In this document: positions 50,742-61,961 of the stretch, piece after piece
Layout of the letters: each line of letters begins with the position of its first letter
Numbering within the stretch: the first letter of the stretch is position 1
Source of the DNA: an uncultured Clostridia bacterium
GTDB taxonomy: Bacteria; Bacillota; Clostridia; Oscillospirales; Ruminococcaceae
DNA length: 64,000 nt
NCBI GenBank assembly: GCA_947631455.1
Contig: CANRLH010000007.1
Span: 42,958-106,957 of the forward strand
Direction: 5' to 3'
Notes under the pieces: generated by a model
Told to the model about the DNA's origin: nothing
Databases searched by the model: none
The model's input: the letters and a program-made list of their open reading frames with translations, nothing else
Translations under genes and position numbers: made by a program

Positions 50742-53366
50742 ATGAGCAAAAAGTGGGTTTACTTATTCTCAGAGGGCGACGCAACAATGAGAGAGCTTCT
50801 CGGCGGTAAGGGCGCTAACCTCGCTGAGATGACAAAACTCGGTCTTCCCGTTCCGCAGGGATTTACTATTACTACAGAGGCCTGCACACAGTACTACGAA
50901 GACGGAAGACAGATCAATGATGAAATCCAGGCTCAGATCAATGAGTACATCGGAAAGATGGAGGAAATAACAGGTAAGAAATTCGGCGACAACGAAAATC
51001 CTCTTTTAGTATCGGTTCGTTCAGGAGCAAGAGCTTCAATGCCGGGAATGATGGATACTATTCTTAATCTCGGTCTTAATGAGACTGTTGTTGATGTAGT
51101 TGCAAAGAAAACAGGAAACGAAAGATGGGCGTGGGACTGCTACAGAAGATTTATTCAGATGTATTCCGACGTTGTTATGGAGGTCGGCAAGAAATACTTT
51201 GAAGAGCTCATCGACGAGATGAAGGCCAAGAAGGGTGTTACTCAGGACGTTGACCTTACCGCTGACGACCTTAAGGAGCTTGCTTCAATGTTCAAGGCTG
51301 AATACAAGGAAAAGATCGGCGAGGACTTCCCGAATGATCCTAAGGAGCAGCTTATGGGTGCGGTCAAGGCAGTATTCCGCTCATGGGACAACCCCCGTGC
51401 AAATGTTTATCGTCGTGACAACGATATTCCTTATTCATGGGGTACCGCTGTAAACGTACAGGAAATGGCATTTGGTAACTGGTCAGATGAGTCGGGTACC
51501 GGCGTTGCCTTTACCCGTGACCCCGCAACCGGTGAGAAGAAGCTTATGGGTGAGTTCCTTATGAACGCTCAGGGCGAGGACGTTGTTGCAGGTGTAAGAA
51601 CTCCTCAACCTATATCTCAGCTCGCTGAGGTTATGCCGGAGGTGTTCGAGCAGTTTAAGAATGTTTGCCAGACACTTGAAAATCACTACAGAGATATGCA
51701 GGATATGGAGTTTACCATTCAGGACAGAAAGCTCTTTATGCTTCAGACAAGAAACGGTAAGAGAACGGCTCAGGCTGCTCTTAAGATCGCTTGCGACCTC
51801 GTTGACGAGGGCATGATCTCAGAGCAGGAAGCTGTTGTTATGATCGACCCGAGAAACCTTGATACGCTTCTTCACCCGCAGTTCGACGCTGCTGCTTTAA
51901 AAGCAGCTACACCGATCGGAAAGGGACTCGGAGCTTCTCCGGGAGCTGCCTGCGGTAAGATAGTTTTCACTGCCGAGGACGCTGAAGAGTGGGCTGCAAG
52001 AGGAGAAAAGGTTGTTTTAGTAAGACTCGAAACTTCTCCTGAGGATATCACCGGTATGAAGTCTTCACAGGGAATCCTCACAGTTCGCGGAGGTATGACA
52101 TCTCACGCTGCTGTCGTTGCCCGCGGCATGGGTACCTGCTGTGTATCCGGCTGCTCTGATATCAATATGGATGAGGCTAATAAGAAATTTACTCTTGCAG
52201 GAAAGACCTTTAACGAGGGCGACTGCATTTCTATCGACGGTTCAACCGGTAACATCTATGATGGACTTATCCCGACGGTTGACGCTACCATTGCAGGAGA
52301 GTTCGGAAGAATTATGGCATGGGCTGACAAATATAGAACTCTTAAGGTAAGAACAAACGCTGATACTCCGGCTGACGCTAAGAAGGCTAAGGAGCTTGGC
52401 GCTGAGGGTATCGGACTTTGCCGTACAGAGCACATGTTCTTTGACCCGGCCAGGATCGCTGCTTTCAGAGAGATGATCTGCGCTGACACGGTTGAGGAGA
52501 GAGAGGCTGCTCTGGCTAAGATCGAGCCAATGCAGCAGGGCGACTTTGAGGCTCTCTATGAGGCTTTGGAGGGCAACCCGGTTACCATAAGATTCTTAGA
52601 CCCGCCGCTTCACGAATTCGTTCCTACCGAAGAGGCTGACATCAAGGCGCTTGCTGAAGCACAGGGCAAGAGCGTTGAGCAAATTAAGGCTATTATCGCA
52701 TCCCTTCACGAGTTTAACCCGATGATGGGACATCGCGGATGCCGTCTTGCGGTAACATATCCCGAGATCGCTAAGATGCAGACCAGTGCCGTTATAAAGG
52801 CTGCTATCAACGTCAAGAAGGCACATCCTGACTGGAATGTTGAGCCCGAAATTATGATTCCTCTCGTAGGAGACATAAAGGAACTTAAATATGTAAAGAA
52901 GGTTGTGGTTGAGACCGCTGACGCTATAATTAAGGCTGCCGGAAGCGACCTTAATTATGAGGTCGGTACTATGATCGAGATCCCGAGAGCTGCTCTTACG
53001 GCTGACGAGATCGCTACTGAGGCTGATTTCTTCTGCTTCGGAACTAACGACCTCACACAGATGACATTCGGATTTTCAAGAGATGACGCAGGCAAGTTCC
53101 TTGACGCATACTACGACAGAAAGATCTATGAGTCTGATCCGTTTGCAAGACTTGATCAGACCGGTGTAGGAAAACTTATGGATATGGCTATTAAGCTTGG
53201 TAAGCCTGTTAATCCGAATCTTCACATTGGTATCTGCGGTGAGCACGGCGGTGACCCGACTTCTGTTGAGTTCTGCCACAAGATCGGCCTTGACTATGTA
53301 TCATGTTCGCCGTTCAGAGTTCCGATAGCAAGACTGGCTGCTGCTCAGGCGGCGATCCGCAACTAA
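50742..53366 (+). CDS. ppdK: Pyruvate, phosphate dikinase
   Basis: GGKGANLAEMTKLGLPVPQGFTITTEAC, GILTVRGGMTSHAAVVARGMGTCCV, GLCRTEHMFF. Confidence 0.97.
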   Translation: MSKKWVYLFSEGDATMRELLGGKGANLAEMTKLGLPVPQGFTITTEACTQYYEDGRQINDEIQAQINEYIGKMEEITGKKFGDNENPLLVSVRSGARASMPGMMDTILNLGLNETVVDVVAKKTGNERWAWDCYRRFIQMYSDVVMEVGKKYFEELIDEMKAKKGVTQDVDLTADDLKELASMFKAEYKEKIGEDFPNDPKEQLMGAVKAVFRSWDNPRANVYRRDNDIPYSWGTAVNVQEMAFGNWSDESGTGVAFTRDPATGEKKLMGEFLMNAQGEDVVAGVRTPQPISQLAEVMPEVFEQFKNVCQTLENHYRDMQDMEFTIQDRKLFMLQTRNGKRTAQAALKIACDLVDEGMISEQEAVVMIDPRNLDTLLHPQFDAAALKAATPIGKGLGASPGAACGKIVFTAEDAEEWAARGEKVVLVRLETSPEDITGMKSSQGILTVRGGMTSHAAVVARGMGTCCVSGCSDINMDEANKKFTLAGKTFNEGDCISIDGSTGNIYDGLIPTVDATIAGEFGRIMAWADKYRTLKVRTNADTPADAKKAKELGAEGIGLCRTEHMFFDPARIAAFREMICADTVEEREAALAKIEPMQQGDFEALYEALEGNPVTIRFLDPPLHEFVPTEEADIKALAEAQGKSVEQIKAIIASLHEFNPMMGHRGCRLAVTYPEIAKMQTSAVIKAAINVKKAHPDWNVEPEIMIPLVGDIKELKYVKKVVVETADAIIKAAGSDLNYEVGTMIEIPRAALTADEIATEADFFCFGTNDLTQMTFGFSRDDAGKFLDAYYDRKIYESDPFARLDQTGVGKLMDMAIKLGKPVNPNLHIGICGEHGGDPTSVEFCHKIGLDYVSCSPFRVPIARLAAAQAAIRN

Positions 53367-53450
53367 GCAGATCGTCACTTGTGGCAAGGGGTACACTAAA
53401 AGCCCGTACCAGTCACGTGATTGGTTTAGTATATAAGAATATATAAAATC

Positions 53451-53485
53451 AACGCTCTGTTATTAAAACGGGGCGTTGTTTTTTT
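53451..53485 (+). terminator. Rho-independent terminator after ppdK
   Basis: AACGCTCTGTTATTAAAACGGGGCGTTGTTTTTTT. Confidence 0.65.
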
Positions 53486-53677
53486 GTATTATAAGATTGT
53501 ATAAATCTGTTTTCATTTTAGTAATTATTTTAACAACTTTTTAGGCTATGTCTGTATCATATCATTTGAACATTGAAGAACAACTCTGAAAATGTAAAAA
53601 ATATACAGCGAATGACAAAATTCGACACATTTCTCAAAAGTTTTGCAGTATGCTCTATATATAAGCTAATTAGTAGG

Positions 53678-53702
53678 TTCGCAAATTATGCTACTTTGCG
53701 AA
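53678..53702. repeat. Left recombination-site-like inverted repeat (IRL)
   Basis: TTCGCAAA-TTATGCTAC-TTTGCGAA; exact reverse complement of 55046-55070 (25/25). Confidence 0.9.
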
Positions 53703-53774
53703 ATAATTAAAATTCTGTGGAAAAATCTGAGGCTGTCTGAATGTCCATTTTTCTTTTGACGGCTTAAAATTTTC

Positions 53775-54884
53775 TCAGGCAATGTTGAGCCGTTCTACAT
53801 ATCTCTTCTTTGCTTCAATAGAAGAATGAACATATCTGTTGAGCGTTATGTTTACATTTGTATGACCGAGCAACTCGCTGACTGCCTTTATATCAAAACC
53901 TTTTTCTATGCACAGGGTCGCATAGGTGTGCCTTAGTAAGTGGAAATTTACGTCTCGTATACTACACTGTTTCAGCACATTTTTAAATCTATATTGCATT
54001 GTTCTGGGTTCAACAGGTTTTTTGGTTCCTGACAGAACAAAGCAGTTTCTGTCTTTTACATTTTCTCTCATCAGTTTAAGTATGAATTCCGGCAGAGGTA
54101 TGTCACGTACGGAAGCTGCGCTTTTGGGATCTCCGAAGTGCAGCATTGTTTTTTTGTCGTTTTCTGATCTGTCAGTTATGCGCTGTACCGTTTTTTCAAT
54201 GTGCACAGTTCCGTTTTCTAAATCAATATTTCCCCATTTTAAAGCGCATATTTCTCCTATGCGAAGCCCGCTGTACATTGTGATGAGAATGCCGAGATTA
54301 CTGCAGGTTAAATTGTCAAGCAAATACTTCTGAAGCTTTGACCTTTCTGAGTCGTTTAAAACAGGCACGGTTTTTCTTTCGCTTTTAGGTATAAATATGT
54401 TTCGGATCGGATCTGCAATGTTGTATTTGTACTCAGCATATCTTGAAATAGACCTCAGCGTTGATAAGATATCACGTACCATTTTTACAGATAGACTGCC
54501 CACTCCGTTTGATCTGCCGTAAGCGAGCTCATACTCCACAAATTCATTTATTACAGCCGTGTCGATTTCCGCATAACCGATATCTTCAAAGTAAGGTATT
54601 ATGTGTTTTGTCACAATCCTTTCGTAACAACAGTAGCTTGACTGCTTTACTCTGAGTTTCACTGAGTCAAGCCACTCATAAGAAAGCTCCTTAAGACTTT
54701 TACAACAGGTGCTTGCAACAGAATTAACTTCCTTATATGCATCAAGCATTTTTTTCTTCAGTTCCTTGACCGTTCTGGCATAAAAGTACTGATATTTAAG
54801 CTTTCCTGTGTCGTCTCTGTCAACGGGAATCCTACCCTCATAACGACCATCTTTCCTCTTGTAAATGTTCATAGTACTCCTCAT
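53775..54884 (-). CDS. Tyrosine-type site-specific recombinase/integrase
   Basis: Catalytic motifs YSGLRIGEICALKWGNI, HLLRHTYATLCIEKG, LLGHTNVNITLNRYVH; ATG 54884 after AAGGAGG. Confidence 0.93.
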   Translation of the reverse strand: MRSTMNIYKRKDGRYEGRIPVDRDDTGKLKYQYFYARTVKELKKKMLDAYKEVNSVASTCCKSLKELSYEWLDSVKLRVKQSSYCCYERIVTKHIIPYFEDIGYAEIDTAVINEFVEYELAYGRSNGVGSLSVKMVRDILSTLRSISRYAEYKYNIADPIRNIFIPKSERKTVPVLNDSERSKLQKYLLDNLTCSNLGILITMYSGLRIGEICALKWGNIDLENGTVHIEKTVQRITDRSENDKKTMLHFGDPKSAASVRDIPLPEFILKLMRENVKDRNCFVLSGTKKPVEPRTMQYRFKNVLKQCSIRDVNFHLLRHTYATLCIEKGFDIKAVSELLGHTNVNITLNRYVHSSIEAKKRYVERLNIA

Positions 54885-54959
54885 AGCTTTACCTCCTTGG
54901 TTGACTGAAAATTTGACGGCTGTATATTTTTTACCCAGCACAGACGCCTGTAAATCGGC

Positions 54960-54988
54960 TTTACAAATAAAAAAACTTGTGCTATACT
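54960..54988 (+). promoter_or_regulatory. Predicted outward promoter (P_agr) inside the cassette, directed toward agrA
   Basis: TTTACA-17 bp-TATACT with extended -10 TG (TGCTATACT). Confidence 0.6.
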
Positions 54989-54997
54989 TTATTTGAT

Positions 54998-55026
54998 ATT
55001 CTACCAAATCATTTGGTTTTATACAA
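54998..55026 (-). promoter_or_regulatory. Predicted promoter for the recombinase (P_int)
   Basis: Minus strand TTGTAT-17 bp-TAGAAT; spacer contains palindrome ACCAAATGATTTGGT. Confidence 0.45.
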
Positions 55027-55045
55027 AAAATGTTCTTTATCGCCA

Positions 55046-55070
55046 TTCGCAAAGTAGCATAATTTGCGAA
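55046..55070. repeat. Right recombination-site-like inverted repeat (IRR)
   Basis: TTCGCAAA-GTAGCATAA-TTTGCGAA; exact reverse complement of 53678-53702. Confidence 0.9.
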
Positions 55071-55117
55071 ATGACGTTAGGAAGTATATATTTATTATTC
55101 CTGCGGAGGTTTTAAAT

Positions 55118-55822
55118 ATGCTTAGAATTGCAATATGTGATGATGACCAAAACTTTTGCTATCATCTGGAAGGTATTATTTTGGATTATATGGACAGCAT
55201 CGGTGAGATAGCGGATATTTCGGTGTATTACTCCGGGGAAAAAATATTGCAGGATATGAGAAATTCTGTCGACTTCGATCTTATTTTTCTCGACATCGAA
55301 ATGAAGAAAATAAGCGGCATACAAGTGGGTATCTCTATACGAAAAGAGCTGAATCGTTTTCATACGCAGATCGTTTACGTTACGTCATTTCAAATCTATG
55401 CTTTGCAGCTGTTTCAGAATCAGCCGTTTGAATTTGTAACAAAGCCTGTAAGTGAAAAGCATATCATTGATGTTATCAAAGAATATAAACGACAGTTTGA
55501 CAATGCAAACGTTTACTATGAATTTAACATTGGAAAAAACATAAGCAAAGTGGCTGTAGACGATATTCTGTATATAAACAGCGTTGCAAGGAAGCTTATT
55601 ATCCATACAGAAACAGAAGAATTTGAAACCTATAAAAAACTTGATGACTTTTATAAGCTACCGATAAGTAAACAATTTGTTCGCATACATAAATCCTTTG
55701 CTGTAAACTACCGTCATATTACCAGCTATCACTACGATCATGTAAAAATATCAAATGGCGAAGAACTGGTTATTAGCAGAAATTATCGAAAAGAAGTGCG
55801 AAAAGAACTGATAAAATCGTAA
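55118..55822 (+). CDS. LytTR-family response regulator (AgrA-like)
   Basis: Receiver LRIAICDDDQNF and DLIFLDIEMKKISG; LytTR VDDILYINSVARKLIIHTE and FVRIHKSFAVNYRHI. Confidence 0.92.
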   Translation: MLRIAICDDDQNFCYHLEGIILDYMDSIGEIADISVYYSGEKILQDMRNSVDFDLIFLDIEMKKISGIQVGISIRKELNRFHTQIVYVTSFQIYALQLFQNQPFEFVTKPVSEKHIIDVIKEYKRQFDNANVYYEFNIGKNISKVAVDDILYINSVARKLIIHTETEEFETYKKLDDFYKLPISKQFVRIHKSFAVNYRHITSYHYDHVKISNGEELVISRNYRKEVRKELIKS

Positions 55823-55839
55823 AACATGGGGGCGTTTTT

Positions 55840-57075
55840 ATGGAAAGTGTTATTTATTTGTCATGGAATATGCTACGCATATATTCTATCTACATATTGA
55901 TAGATGTGTTTTTAAAAAGAAAAGATATAAAAAGCGGGGTTGTATTCTTAGCTTATGCTGGTTTTTTTGCTGTCAACTCATTTTTATATTTATGTTTTGA
56001 TTCATATTTAGTTAATATTGCGTCTAATATAGTTCCCATATTTATGCTTACTTTTTTGTATAAATCCAGAATATGGAAAAAAATATTTGTTTCTATTTTG
56101 ATTTATACTATTTCGATGTTTTGGGAATGCATTTTGTATGTTTTTTTTAACGCTGTACATATAAAAAATTTAGTAATTGTTTGTGGTTTTGCGTCATCAA
56201 TAATGATGTTTTTAACGGCATTATTTTTTAAAATACAAATTAAGCAAAAATTTCGGCTAGAAGCCCACATAAAAGCGTTTTATTATTTGATGCTGATTTA
56301 TATTCCTTTGGGAAGCATAATCATTGGATATTTAACAATGCCTGAAAAAAGTATTGGTTCTTTAGTTATAGGAATCATATTGCTCTTTATAAATTTTCTT
56401 ATATTTTATCTATTTGATGAAATTATAAAATCATATATGCGGCAACAGGAGGCTGAAAGCATAAAGCAAAATAAACTTTATTTTCAGCATGAGCTTGAGG
56501 TAATGCAAAAATCACAGCTTAAAATGGACTTCTTGCGCCATGATATGAAAAATCATTTTATCCGAATTGAGGGCTTTGCAAAAGAAAACAATGTGTCTGA
56601 AATATTAAATTACGTTGAGCAGGGCAGACGATCACTCATTTCTGAAGAGGGATATGTTATCACCGGTAATAAAAGTGTTGACTGTATATTAAATTACAAA
56701 TTAGATGAAGCATCTCAGAAAAATATTACTTTTTCGGTCAACGCGGTTATTCCTGATAATTTAAAAATAAGTGCGTTTGATTTAAGTACTATTTTAGGAA
56801 ACATCCTGGATAATGCCATTGAAGCGGCGGCAAAATCATCAGATAAAAAAATAGATGTTTCTATAAACTATAATAAAAATACTTTGGCAATTATAATTAT
56901 AAATACATTTGACGGAAAAATAAATAAGAATTTTGAAACCACAAAGTCAAATCCCTTAGGTCATGGTCTGGGACTTAAGAGCGTAAAAATAACAGCTGAA
57001 AAATATAACGGCCTGGTTGAATATGACTACAATAATATGTATTTTACGACAAAAATTCTTTTGTACGATGAGTAA
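55840..57075 (+). CDS. GHKL-type sensor histidine kinase (AgrC-like)
   Basis: Multi-TM N-terminus; FLRHDMKNHFIRIEGF H-box; ILDNAIEAAAK; GHGLGLKSVK. Confidence 0.92.
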   Translation: MESVIYLSWNMLRIYSIYILIDVFLKRKDIKSGVVFLAYAGFFAVNSFLYLCFDSYLVNIASNIVPIFMLTFLYKSRIWKKIFVSILIYTISMFWECILYVFFNAVHIKNLVIVCGFASSIMMFLTALFFKIQIKQKFRLEAHIKAFYYLMLIYIPLGSIIIGYLTMPEKSIGSLVIGIILLFINFLIFYLFDEIIKSYMRQQEAESIKQNKLYFQHELEVMQKSQLKMDFLRHDMKNHFIRIEGFAKENNVSEILNYVEQGRRSLISEEGYVITGNKSVDCILNYKLDEASQKNITFSVNAVIPDNLKISAFDLSTILGNILDNAIEAAAKSSDKKIDVSINYNKNTLAIIIINTFDGKINKNFETTKSNPLGHGLGLKSVKITAEKYNGLVEYDYNNMYFTTKILLYDE

Positions 57076-57189: not shown

Positions 57190-57333
57190 ATGAAGAATTT
57201 TTTCAAAAAGTACGGGCATGTTTTCGCGGCATTGGCTTTAGTGCTTACCACTATAACTGCTAATTCGACTTGTGCGTTTTTTATTCACCAAGAAAAGCTG
57301 CCTGAAGGTGCAAAGGCACTGAGAAGGTTCTGA
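57190..57333 (+). CDS. AgrD-like cyclic (thio)lactone autoinducer peptide precursor, 47 aa (not in supplied ORF track)
   Basis: MKNFFKKYGHVFAALALVLTTITANSTCAFFIHQEKLPEGAKALRRF: amphipathic leader, central Cys, charged tail; GGGAGG SD; 1-nt overlap with the agrB-like gene. Confidence 0.9.
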   Translation: MKNFFKKYGHVFAALALVLTTITANSTCAFFIHQEKLPEGAKALRRF

Positions 57334-57932
57334 TGTTCAATTCAGTATCAGAAAGAATCACACAGCTTTTGGTCAAACAGAAAACTATTGAAGATTCTCA
57401 GAAAGAATTGTATCGGTACGGCTTTAATCAAGGCTTTACTATGCTATTTAACTTGATTACAACTCTAATAATTGGTTGTGTATTCGGTATGGTTCTCCAA
57501 AGCATAGTTTTCTTAACAGCTTATATACCGTTAAGGAGCTATGCGGGAGGGTACCATGCAAGCACACCTTGGCGGTGTTATTTTATTTCGGTGGTTTTAA
57601 TATCTGTAGTTTTGGGGGCTATCAAGATCATGCCGTATTCGTTTTTGGTTTGCGGCGTACTTGTTGGAATAGGAACTGTAATATGTTTCGTTCTGGCTCC
57701 GACTGAGGATAATAATAAGCCTCTTGATGCAACAGAACAGAAGGTTTATAAAAAGCGAACATACATAATACTGATTTTTGAATTATGCATAGCATCATTA
57801 AGTGTATTTGTTTCTAAAAGTGTGTTTTTGGCTATATGTATGGCGATTTTTACAGAAAGCGTAATGCTTCTTTTAGGAAGAATAAAAAACACACTTAATA
57901 GGAGTACGGATCCGAAAGCTAGGATCTGTTAA
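57333..57932 (+). CDS. Accessory gene regulator B family protein (AgrB-like peptide-processing membrane protease)
   Basis: RSYAGGYHASTPWRCYF containing the conserved His and Cys; multi-TM; adjacent agrD. Confidence 0.95.
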   Translation: MFNSVSERITQLLVKQKTIEDSQKELYRYGFNQGFTMLFNLITTLIIGCVFGMVLQSIVFLTAYIPLRSYAGGYHASTPWRCYFISVVLISVVLGAIKIMPYSFLVCGVLVGIGTVICFVLAPTEDNNKPLDATEQKVYKKRTYIILIFELCIASLSVFVSKSVFLAICMAIFTESVMLLLGRIKNTLNRSTDPKARIC

Positions 57933-58137: not shown

Positions 58138-60177
58138 ATGAAATTCAGAAGAACGTTAGCTGCATTAGCAGCAATGGCAATGTCTGCGACAGCGCTTACA
58201 TCAATGATAAGTGCGTCGGCATTGGAAGGAGCAGGTACTTATACCGGCAGCGCAGCATACATCGGAACGTATTTCAAAGCTGACTATTTCGGAAATACTG
58301 CGTTTAGGGTAAGCTACAAGTACGATAAGTTCGATGAGGCTGGTACGTATAAAGATCCCGACACAGGAGAAATAGTGACAATTGACTATAATGACACTTT
58401 TCAATTTCTTGTGTTTGACTCAGAGTGGGGCGGTTGGGACAAAACATCTGTAGGACCAGACGGAATAAATGATTCCGAGCCGCCGCTTACAGCTGAGGAT
58501 TTGGACACAAAAACGGTTTATACAGCTACTGTGCCAATTGCAGCAATAGAAAGCAAGCTTAGCACGACAAATGCGGTACAGGGAATCAATCTTCAGCTTG
58601 GTGGAGTAGGCGATACAACGGTAACGATCGAGTCTATCGAGTATGTACAGGGCGAAGTACCGGGCGAGGAAGTAACCATAAAAGGTGAATGGACAAAGCT
58701 TCCTGATGAGTCAGAAGAACCTGTCGGAGAAATGAAGGTTACACAGGGCTCGGCATATGTACTTACGACCAAGTGGAACATTCAGGTATCACAGTTCTCA
58801 ACAAGCGGCTTTGAAAATCCGACTGTAGCTGTTACGGTAACATATGATAAGGCTCCGAATGACTATATTCAGGCAGAGCTGTTAAAGACTGACTGGACAC
58901 CAATCGTTGCAAACTATCCGTATGTGGATGTAACAGGAACTTATACTTACACCACAGAGATTCCTGCCGGCACTAATGCGTTTATAGCTTGTTATGATCA
59001 GTGCACGGTAAAAGAGATCCACATTTATAATAACCACGAGGGTAATGCGCTTAAGGTTTCCGGCAAAACAGCAAGTGAGATAAATTCATCACTTCAACCT
59101 AGCTTTGCACTTGGTGGAGCACTTGAAGCTTTCGAGGTAGATGAAAGTAACAATGTACATGCTAGCGAAACGGCATGGGGCAATCCGGTAGTAACGGAAG
59201 CACTGTTCCAGACAGTAAAGGGCGCAGGCTTTAAGAGCGTAAGAATCCCTGTAAGCTATCTTGATATGATAGATGCTAATGGTAATATTGTTAAAGATAG
59301 ACTTGACAGAGTTCAGAAAGTTGTAGATGATGCTCTTGATACAGGCTTATATGTAATAATTAATATCCATAACGATGGTGGTGAAGGCGTACCTGGAAAG
59401 TGGATTGATATAAGTCTTGAAAACGGTAGTACAGCATTTAATGCAGTTGTAGCAAAGTTCTCGGCAGCATGGACACAGATAGCAACCAGGTTTGCAAACT
59501 ACAATGAAGCGCTTATCTTTGAAGGTATGAATGAGGTTATGGTCAGCGGTAAATACTCAAGAAGTCAGTTTACGAATGCTGAATTTGCAAATGTATATGC
59601 AAATATTAAAACCTTAAATCAGGCTTTTGTCTCAGTTGTTCGTTACTCTGGTTCTTCCAATACGGATCGTTGCTTGATAGTACCCGGATACAATACTGAC
59701 ATCGATTTAACAGTAGACGGATTTGCTGAGAAGGTATTTTCAATGCCTACAGATTCTACTGCAAACAGGTTGATTCTCTCGGTTCATTACTATACCCCAA
59801 GTGATTTTACTATAGCTGAAAATGGAACAACTACTTGGGATATTAACGGGCAATATGGTAAAACATATATGGTTTCACAGCTTACAAAGATAGCAGGCTA
59901 TGGTTATCCTGTATATATCGGAGAGTATAGTGCAATATTTAAAAACAACATTTCTGAGGTTGTAGAATATATAGGTGCATTCAATCAGGCAGTTTCACAA
60001 GTGGCAGCAACAGGCAAGAGCATTTCAGCAGCTTATTGGGATAACGGTGTGATTGGTGATAACAACAAGGGCTCTGGCATTATTGATAGACGGTTTAATG
60101 TTGTAACTCAAACAGGAACCAAAATTATTAATGCAATTCTTGGTATAAATACTCCCGCTCCTGATGTAGCTCAATAA
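58138..60177 (+). CDS. Secreted GH5-family cellulase/endoglucanase with N-terminal beta-sandwich-like modules
   Basis: Signal peptide; GH5-like FKSVRIPVSYLDM, INIHNDGG, LIFEGMNEVM (acid/base), LSVHYYTP, VYIGEYSA (nucleophile). Confidence 0.88.
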   Translation: MKFRRTLAALAAMAMSATALTSMISASALEGAGTYTGSAAYIGTYFKADYFGNTAFRVSYKYDKFDEAGTYKDPDTGEIVTIDYNDTFQFLVFDSEWGGWDKTSVGPDGINDSEPPLTAEDLDTKTVYTATVPIAAIESKLSTTNAVQGINLQLGGVGDTTVTIESIEYVQGEVPGEEVTIKGEWTKLPDESEEPVGEMKVTQGSAYVLTTKWNIQVSQFSTSGFENPTVAVTVTYDKAPNDYIQAELLKTDWTPIVANYPYVDVTGTYTYTTEIPAGTNAFIACYDQCTVKEIHIYNNHEGNALKVSGKTASEINSSLQPSFALGGALEAFEVDESNNVHASETAWGNPVVTEALFQTVKGAGFKSVRIPVSYLDMIDANGNIVKDRLDRVQKVVDDALDTGLYVIINIHNDGGEGVPGKWIDISLENGSTAFNAVVAKFSAAWTQIATRFANYNEALIFEGMNEVMVSGKYSRSQFTNAEFANVYANIKTLNQAFVSVVRYSGSSNTDRCLIVPGYNTDIDLTVDGFAEKVFSMPTDSTANRLILSVHYYTPSDFTIAENGTTTWDINGQYGKTYMVSQLTKIAGYGYPVYIGEYSAIFKNNISEVVEYIGAFNQAVSQVAATGKSISAAYWDNGVIGDNNKGSGIIDRRFNVVTQTGTKIINAILGINTPAPDVAQ

Positions 60178-60185
60178 CACAGGTT

Positions 60186-61961
60186 ATGAAGAAGATTATA
60201 TCCGGTTTTACAGCAGCAGTCATTTTATTGACTGCTGCTGCTATACCCGTTTTTGCAGAGTCCACACCGATCTCCGGCATGTGTGGCGAAACCGCAACCT
60301 GGAGCTTTGACGAATCTACAGGCGTTCTGACAATCTCTGGGAAAGGGGATATGTATACCAGCTATACTCCAGTTGATCAATGGGAATATTATCCGCTTAG
60401 AGATAATGTTAAGGAGTTAGTTGTTGAAGAAGGCGTAACATCGATTTCTGCATATGCTTTTGGACAGCGTGAGTATCGTGATCCATCTGCATATCCTAAT
60501 CTAACTAAGCTTAAATTACCTTCGTCTGTAAAAATTATTGGAGAAGGTGCTTTTAAAAAAGCAGGGTTAACAAGTATTGAATTTTCTGATGGGCTTGAAA
60601 CCATAGAAAAGGAAGCATTTAGTGACACTTCATTGTCAGGTGATTTATTTCTATCACAAACATTAAACACTATAGGTCAATTGGCATTTTCAAATACTGG
60701 TATTACATCGGTCAATTTGAATGAGGGTATGACTATAGGAGGGCAGGCTTTTTCTGGTTGTAATTCTTTGGAAGAAGTGACTATTCCCTATGATTTATAT
60801 TATCTGGGAACTAATACAGCTAATATGGTTCGTGCAAATGCAGCTTTTTTTGATTGTAAGAATCTTAAAAAGGTTGTAATTCTTGGTGGCGGTATAGTTC
60901 ATATTAACTTAAGCGGAAGTGAATATCCAGATAATGGTCTGGCTCAAGATATGTTTATGGGTTGTACATCACTTAAAGAGGTAACAATCAAATCTGATAA
61001 TATCAGTTATGTCGATAGTGGTACCTTTGATATGACTAGTAACCCTGTATTCTATATCTACAAGAACAGCACAACAGAAGCGACTCTTAGAGACGCGGGA
61101 TATCTTACGGACTCAAATGTTGTGTATATTGCCAACAAGACCGTCTTAGAGGGAGCGGTCAAGTCGGCTGAGGAAATGGACAAAAGCCTGTACACCTCGA
61201 AATCTGTTGACACTCTTAACAAGGCAATAGAAGCAGGAAAAGCTACTATTGCTGACGAAGATGCGTCACAGGCGGATGTTGATAATGCAGTTAAAGCAAT
61301 CAATGATGCAGTTGCGGCACTTACATATAGGACTGCTGATTACACAGCGGTAGATGCAGCCCTTGAGAAAGTACCTGATGATTTAAGTGTTTACACTGAT
61401 GAGACTGTGGCGGCGGTTACTGAGGCAGTTGAGTCAGTTGACAGGACAAAGAACATTACCGATCAGGTGGCCGTTGACGGATATGCAAAGGCAATAGAGG
61501 ACGCGGTTGCGGCACTGAAGTTAAAGCCTTTGCTTGCAGTCAGCGGAACGGTTATAGCACTGGGAGTTGACACAGAGGTTACGGTTACCGTAACAGATGC
61601 TGACGGTAAAGTAGTTGCTGAAGTAACAGCAGATGGCAAATATACTGTTTCCGACCTTGAGTACGGGGAATATGTAATAACCGTTATAGCAAAAAACTGC
61701 GCACCGAGAAGCTATGGAATAACAGTAGCAGCAGATGGTGAAGCAACACTTGATGCTGAGATGCACCTATACGGTGACATTAACGGTGACGGACAAATAA
61801 CCACGGCGGATGTGGGACTTGCAAATGCACATGCAAGAGGAACTTCAATGCTTAAGGGGTATGACTTTGATGTAGCTGATGTAACGAGCGATGGTGAAGT
61901 TACTACGGCAGACGTCGGAGCTATTAACTCACACGCACAGAGCGTAAGGGCTTTGTGGTGA
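60186..61961 (+). CDS. Secreted BspA-type leucine-rich repeat protein with FIVAR-like and C-terminal dockerin modules
   Basis: Signal peptide; LRR_5-like repeats; dockerin repeats GDINGDGQITTADVGLANAHARG and ADVTSDGEVTTADVGAINSHAQ. Confidence 0.85.
   Translation: MKKIISGFTAAVILLTAAAIPVFAESTPISGMCGETATWSFDESTGVLTISGKGDMYTSYTPVDQWEYYPLRDNVKELVVEEGVTSISAYAFGQREYRDPSAYPNLTKLKLPSSVKIIGEGAFKKAGLTSIEFSDGLETIEKEAFSDTSLSGDLFLSQTLNTIGQLAFSNTGITSVNLNEGMTIGGQAFSGCNSLEEVTIPYDLYYLGTNTANMVRANAAFFDCKNLKKVVILGGGIVHINLSGSEYPDNGLAQDMFMGCTSLKEVTIKSDNISYVDSGTFDMTSNPVFYIYKNSTTEATLRDAGYLTDSNVVYIANKTVLEGAVKSAEEMDKSLYTSKSVDTLNKAIEAGKATIADEDASQADVDNAVKAINDAVAALTYRTADYTAVDAALEKVPDDLSVYTDETVAAVTEAVESVDRTKNITDQVAVDGYAKAIEDAVAALKLKPLLAVSGTVIALGVDTEVTVTVTDADGKVVAEVTADGKYTVSDLEYGEYVITVIAKNCAPRSYGITVAADGEATLDAEMHLYGDINGDGQITTADVGLANAHARGTSMLKGYDFDVADVTSDGEVTTADVGAINSHAQSVRALW

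Follow-up and report, generated by a model that had tools for sequence, protein, structure and literature searches.

The presence of a lone tyrosine recombinase gene directly before an agr quorum-sensing operon, as found in the window (the whole stretch of 64,000 nucleotides that was analysed, from an uncultured Clostridia bacterium), raises the question of what this enzyme is doing there, and in particular whether it controls the operon or is merely inserted beside it. We consider it quite probable that the recombinase and its surroundings form a Hin-like phase switch of quorum sensing, in which the invertible segment encodes its own recombinase.

Two 25-mers are exact reverse complements (100%), as the original prediction for this DNA had claimed, and they form the longest perfect inverted repeat within positions 53000-56000. 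The left crossover site (53678..53702, no strand assigned) is composed of TTCGCAAA-TTATGCTAC-TTTGCGAA and the right one (55046..55070, likewise without strand) is its exact reverse complement, with an identical core. Palindromic arms around an asymmetric core had also been proposed, and they are indeed present, with TTCGCAAA and TTTGCGAA being mutual reverse complements and TTATGCTAC being asymmetric. The cassette spans 1.39 kb including the sites and its sole gene, again as anticipated, is the tyrosine recombinase, on the minus strand; the layout is alike in two other genomes of the same genus (G008 and G009). Given that the sites are inverted relative to each other, the prediction of inversion (and not excision) holds as far as site geometry can tell. 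Between the right site and the agrA-like start at 55118 there are 47 bp, exactly the distance first reported; on the other side the cassette is isolated by an intrinsic terminator (53450..53487, plus strand) located after the upstream ppdK gene. With one gene inside and no second copy in the genome, the segment does not have the composition of an integrative/conjugative element or of an insertion sequence; what is found is the layout of a promoter inverton, with inverted repeats around a segment whose outward promoter faces a gene.

The recombinase (369 aa; 53775..54884, minus strand) matches PF00589 (E=4e-27) and PF14659 (E=5e-11), and its start ATG at 54884 is preceded by an AGGAGG ribosome-binding site. 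All the catalytic residues of a tyrosine recombinase (R, K, H-x-x-R, H and Tyr) are conserved in its catalytic domain, R207, K253, H314, R317, H340 and Y350 (numbering of the 368-aa query) being invariant in an alignment across 20 homologs. In the structure model (mean pLDDT 83.6), the N-terminal domain is formed by three strands and a helix (beta-beta-beta-alpha); the N-terminus has no Pfam arm-domain match, and its sequence NIYKRKDGRxEGR is conserved among the homologs. The motif GCCGTCA occurs ~35 bp before the start codon in 21 of 70 cassettes and ~14 bp after the stop codon in 31 of 70, on the same strand, the expectation from shuffled sequences for these two places being 0.1 and 0.3. This placement, together with the conserved N-terminus and the predicted three-strand/helix domain, makes the motif look like a putative arm-type binding site, of the kind to which bivalent integrases of the lambda-Int/Tn916 type bind with their N-terminal domain, away from the crossover site. 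In the window, two direct copies of this putative site, TTTGACGGCT, lie on the plus strand, one distal (53755..53764) and one proximal (54912..54921). Among solved structures, the closest in sequence, with a match over the catalytic C-terminus, are PDB 6EMY, 6EMZ and 6EN0 (deposited as Int protein), which we take to be Tn1549 Int and relatives, enzymes that move a conjugative transposon; the window cassette differs from Tn1549 in carrying no transposon genes and in having its sites in inverted orientation. Two paralogs are found in the same genome (G000), one 39% identical (G000:C6:20941-22044, cassette L021:5695-7146) with its own perfect inverted sites TTCGTAGAATATCTCGTTCTAAGAA, and the other 43% identical (G000:C1:313840-314934, cassette L020:5594-7053) with its own inverted sites of 21 nt at 95%. 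Both cassettes are followed by an XRE-type regulator gene, their sites are unlike those of the window and unlike each other, and they are apparently two more independent switches in one genome.

A promoter scan located an outward promoter inside the cassette (TTTACA-N17-TATACT with a TG extension; 54960..54988, plus strand), reading through the right site into agrA, which is the direction that had been claimed; the motif recurs in the G008 and G009 cassettes and in three invertons without a gene. It is faced by a candidate recombinase promoter (TTGTAT-N17-TAGAAT; 54998..55026, minus strand), proposed from reading the sequence, conserved at loci L031 and L032 and too weak for the promoter scan. 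Beyond the right site, the components of an agr quorum-sensing operon stand together, all on the plus strand: an agrA-like LytTR response regulator (55118..55822; PF04397 and PF00072), an agrC-like GHKL histidine kinase (55840..57075; PF14501), agrD, a cyclic-lactone autoinducer precursor of 47 aa (57190..57333; TIGR04223), and the processing protease agrB (57333..57932; PF04647, E=2e-42). They are followed, on the same strand, by a GH5 cellulase (58138..60177; Pfam), whose synteny is kept in G008 and G009 and which is a possible output of the agr locus, and by an LRR/FIVAR/dockerin protein (60186..61961; Pfam), which has a paralog after each of two other agr-type pairs. A second agrA promoter would hardly fit into the 47 bp that separate the right site from agrA. 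A terminator scan of the locus found none between the recombinase gene and the left site, so that transcription may still run on into agr once the cassette is flipped.

These parts can be joined in the following mechanism. The recombinase would bind the 8-bp arms of both inverted sites, and probably also the putative direct TTGACGGC arm-type sites, and would flip the 1.39-kb segment that holds its own gene. In the orientation seen, the internal promoter would drive agrACDB through the right site (ON); after inversion, it would face the ppdK terminator, leaving agr without an evident promoter of its own and therefore either OFF or dependent on read-through from the recombinase gene alone. The enzyme would probably also act in trans on gene-free invertons that have the same arms and lie before two paralogous agrA/agrC-like pairs, the locus-specific core being the address that would keep each pair of sites to itself. 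What we infer is that the window cassette inverts, that its enzyme acts in trans and that transcription is affected.

The 1.92-Mb genome has 5 matches to the pattern TTCGCAAA-N9-TTTGCGAA with up to one mismatch allowed, all of them at agr-type loci, and a reversed control pattern gave 0 matches in this same genome. The possibility that the sites are an ordinary dispersed repeat, which the original prediction had named as the outcome that would speak against it, was therefore rejected; exact matches to the site were also absent from viral contigs. Besides the window pair, there are three sites, namely a pair on contig C15 and one at the very start of contig C2, which begins 1 bp inside it; all contig ends were checked for a partner of the latter and none carries it. 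The two C15 sites lie 351 bp apart and bound a gene-free inverton of 376 bp, and its promoter (TTTACA-N17-TATACT with the TG extension) points to an agrA paralog. The C15 and C2 sites lie directly before LytTR/GHKL pairs (25-29% and 35-38% identity to the window agrA/agrC), each followed by an LRR/dockerin paralog. Altogether, a site stands in front of three of the seven LytTR proteins of the genome; another LytTR gene, which has a fragment of AgrB close by (G000:C2:303215-305185), has no match to the site pattern. Just before the promoter of LRR/dockerin genes adjoining orphan agrA/agrC pairs, the direct repeat TTCAGGGCG is found twice, 21 bp apart (L019:6790-6850, on C15, and L083:7600-7660, on contig C9 of G008). 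These LytTR-like repeats are likely to be LytTR regulator sites, which makes the genes plausible outputs of the orphan pairs.

The same cassette is present in G008 and G009, with recombinases 83% and 82% identical and equal agr synteny, and both genomes hold further sites at paralogous agr-type loci. In all three genomes, gene-free invertons (351-376 bp) with the shared arms and promoter precede paralogous LytTR/GHKL pairs. In G009 the core changes from TTATGCTAC to TTATACTAC (G to A) in both sites of the pair, and in G008 one inner-arm base is changed, with the same change in both sites. The cores at other loci differ from that of the window (GTAAGATAC, TTATGGTTC, GAATTATAA and so on) and match within each locus. 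Two gene-free invertons are exceptions in that the first base, at the edge of the 9-bp core, differs, pointing to a true overlap of 8 bp or less. With cores private to the locus and equal within the pair, recombination should be confined to the two sites of each pair; such matching is expected of strand-exchange sites and would prevent recombination between loci. The action in trans on gene-free invertons we infer from the shared arms only. With modest confidence, we lean towards a broader scheme, in which one recombinase, residing in its own inverton, would independently phase-switch three agr-type loci of one cell, private cores serving as addresses; a clonal population could then hold as many as eight heritable signalling states, which would control dockerin/LRR and cellulase genes.

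Some indication of both orientations comes from the places where the assemblies break. At the third locus of G008, the end of contig C32 and the beginning of contig C34 both lie one base inside a site, the break point being, on both sides of the site pair, the last base common to both orientations. In G009, contig C28 keeps the equivalent neighbourhood unbroken (LRR, agrC, agrA, a 375-bp inverton and a cellulase), so that C32 and C34 most likely adjoin in G008, lacking nothing but the inverton between them. In these assemblies, cassettes whose perfect repeats are of similar length remain unbroken, and hence repeat length alone does not explain the break. Breaks at the inner site edges are expected if both orientations are present, and would also arise from a mixture of strains that differ within the inverton. 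In another genome (G140), the end of contig C44 consists of exactly 55 bases of site and agrA-side flank in the inverted orientation. As clean proof of inversion this end is weakened, since the near-identical cassette on contig C121 has the same 55-mer; with near-identical paralogs sharing it, the junction is suggestive. Comparison of orientation across relatives gave a divided answer: the window cassette has one orientation in the assembly and the same one in three species, and the opposite orientation is found at 13 related agr-linked loci. All intact cassettes and intact gene-free invertons of the three species are in the ON orientation. No flipped copies were found among near-identical viral contig pairs or Enterococcus raffinosus plasmids, and three of these plasmids share a locus with distant homologs in one and the same orientation.

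Of 299 family genomes surveyed, 47 have relatives at E <= 1e-70. In 68 of 78 homologous loci, the recombinase is a single gene between its own inverted sites (score of at least 17), with perfect repeats in 50 of the 67 loci that reach this score once the outlier L156 is left out; control flank pairs from mismatched loci mostly score 8-12, and inverted repeats were not found flanking distant phage integrases. The L156 cassette (L156:4241-5833) has inverted repeats of ~180 bp, far longer than the others. About 20 cassettes adjoin an agrA-like gene and are clustered on the tree; a single clade for all of them was rejected, as the label needs 9 changes. Every scanned agr-linked cassette with at least 45% identity has a promoter directed opposite to the recombinase, which points toward agr in the window genus and away from it in the 13 more distant cassettes. 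Among the cassettes in the latter orientation, agrA has, at least in the L033 group, its own promoter-like sequence beyond the site, and the effect there need not be on/off. G140 has three nearly identical cassettes (L143, L144 and L165) before three different agr-type loci, suggesting that the gene-free invertons of the window genus arose by loss of the recombinase gene. In L165 (G140:C121) the cores of the two sites differ, one being equal to the core of another G140 cassette, which reflects either exchange between loci or a chimeric contig. Distant homologs (31-35%) with inverted repeats also occur on Enterococcus plasmids (L190-L192, L194 and L195), located either before an HTH gene with accessory SecA2 genes or before WxL surface-protein genes.

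Could the cassette be, instead, a minimal mobile element, that is, an integrase on its own, bounded by terminal inverted repeats, that has inserted before agr and does not invert? Homologous single-gene cassettes beside many unrelated genes, several copies per genome, and label changes showing that the neighbourhood was swapped several times would suit such an element. We nevertheless find it very improbable, because gene-free segments at paralogous loci carry the same sites and promoter, the cores vary between loci yet match within each locus, the agr promoter is carried by the cassette itself, the orientation relative to agr varies among related loci and contigs break exactly at the inner site edges. 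The breaks at the third-locus sites also argue against a decayed switch, formerly invertible and now locked ON in this lineage as a fixed promoter, as do the intact recombinase with its conserved catalytic residues and the perfect 25-bp pair that changes in concert between species; such decay, which we regard as improbable, would explain why only the ON orientation is seen in the intact copies of three species.

Inversion might also regulate the recombinase itself, coupling it with agrA in one read-through transcript without shutting agr off. This we hold to be unlikely, even if it is the alternative with most in its favour: a terminator behind the recombinase gene was looked for and not found, the recombinase is co-directional with agr in 13 related loci and the two promoters face each other. 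On the other hand, the strong consensus promoter faces agr in one orientation only and the gene-free invertons have no recombinase gene to read through, so that inversion there should simply remove the promoter. The self-encoded phase switch is the reading that we prefer, and the original interpretation of an invertible cassette before agr is supported.

In Salmonella, Hin is a serine recombinase which works with an enhancer, and an outward promoter drives the neighbouring operon. Like the H-segment, the window cassette has the recombinase gene inside the invertible segment and an outward promoter directed to a neighbouring operon; unlike it, the window has a tyrosine recombinase, probable arm-type sites and a quorum-sensing target. 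The position of Hin inside the invertible segment is mentioned in PMC5903667. In C. difficile, the flgB, cwpV and two-component-system switches invert short upstream segments, and RecV acts on several of them while being encoded apart from most (PMC5903667, PMC6837544). The likeness lies in the host class (Clostridia), in inversion upstream of genes that include regulators and in one recombinase serving several switches; the separation of RecV from most of its switches is a difference, and no agr operon is among the targets given in the accessible parts of these two papers. In the hCom2 community, inverton group 139 with invertase group 35 comprises invertons of Clostridia in close linkage with a tyrosine recombinase (PMC11892184), perhaps of the same broad family as the window cassette; neither agr nor quorum sensing is mentioned in the main text of that paper. 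In S. aureus, agr phase variation occurs by duplication/inversion inside agrC and by homopolymer slippage in agrA (PMC7911514), similar in the reversible shut-off of agr and different in having no dedicated recombinase or promoter inversion. A search mostly of papers outside subscription found no published description of a recombinase-driven inverton before an agr operon. Recombinases inside invertons, Clostridia invertons and S. aureus agr phase variation are already known, and the new part would be the agr operon behind an inverton.

The usual view of quorum sensing is that of a decision taken by the whole population and set by density. If the agr switch is true, a clone would hold heritably deaf cells together with listening ones, with its signalling loci set separately. 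Shared arms combined with private cores would be a simple layout for one invertase to serve several loci without scrambling the genome. The findings also suggest that, in gut Clostridia, annotation as a lone "site-specific integrase" in many cases stands for a phase switch, and not for the remains of a mobile element.
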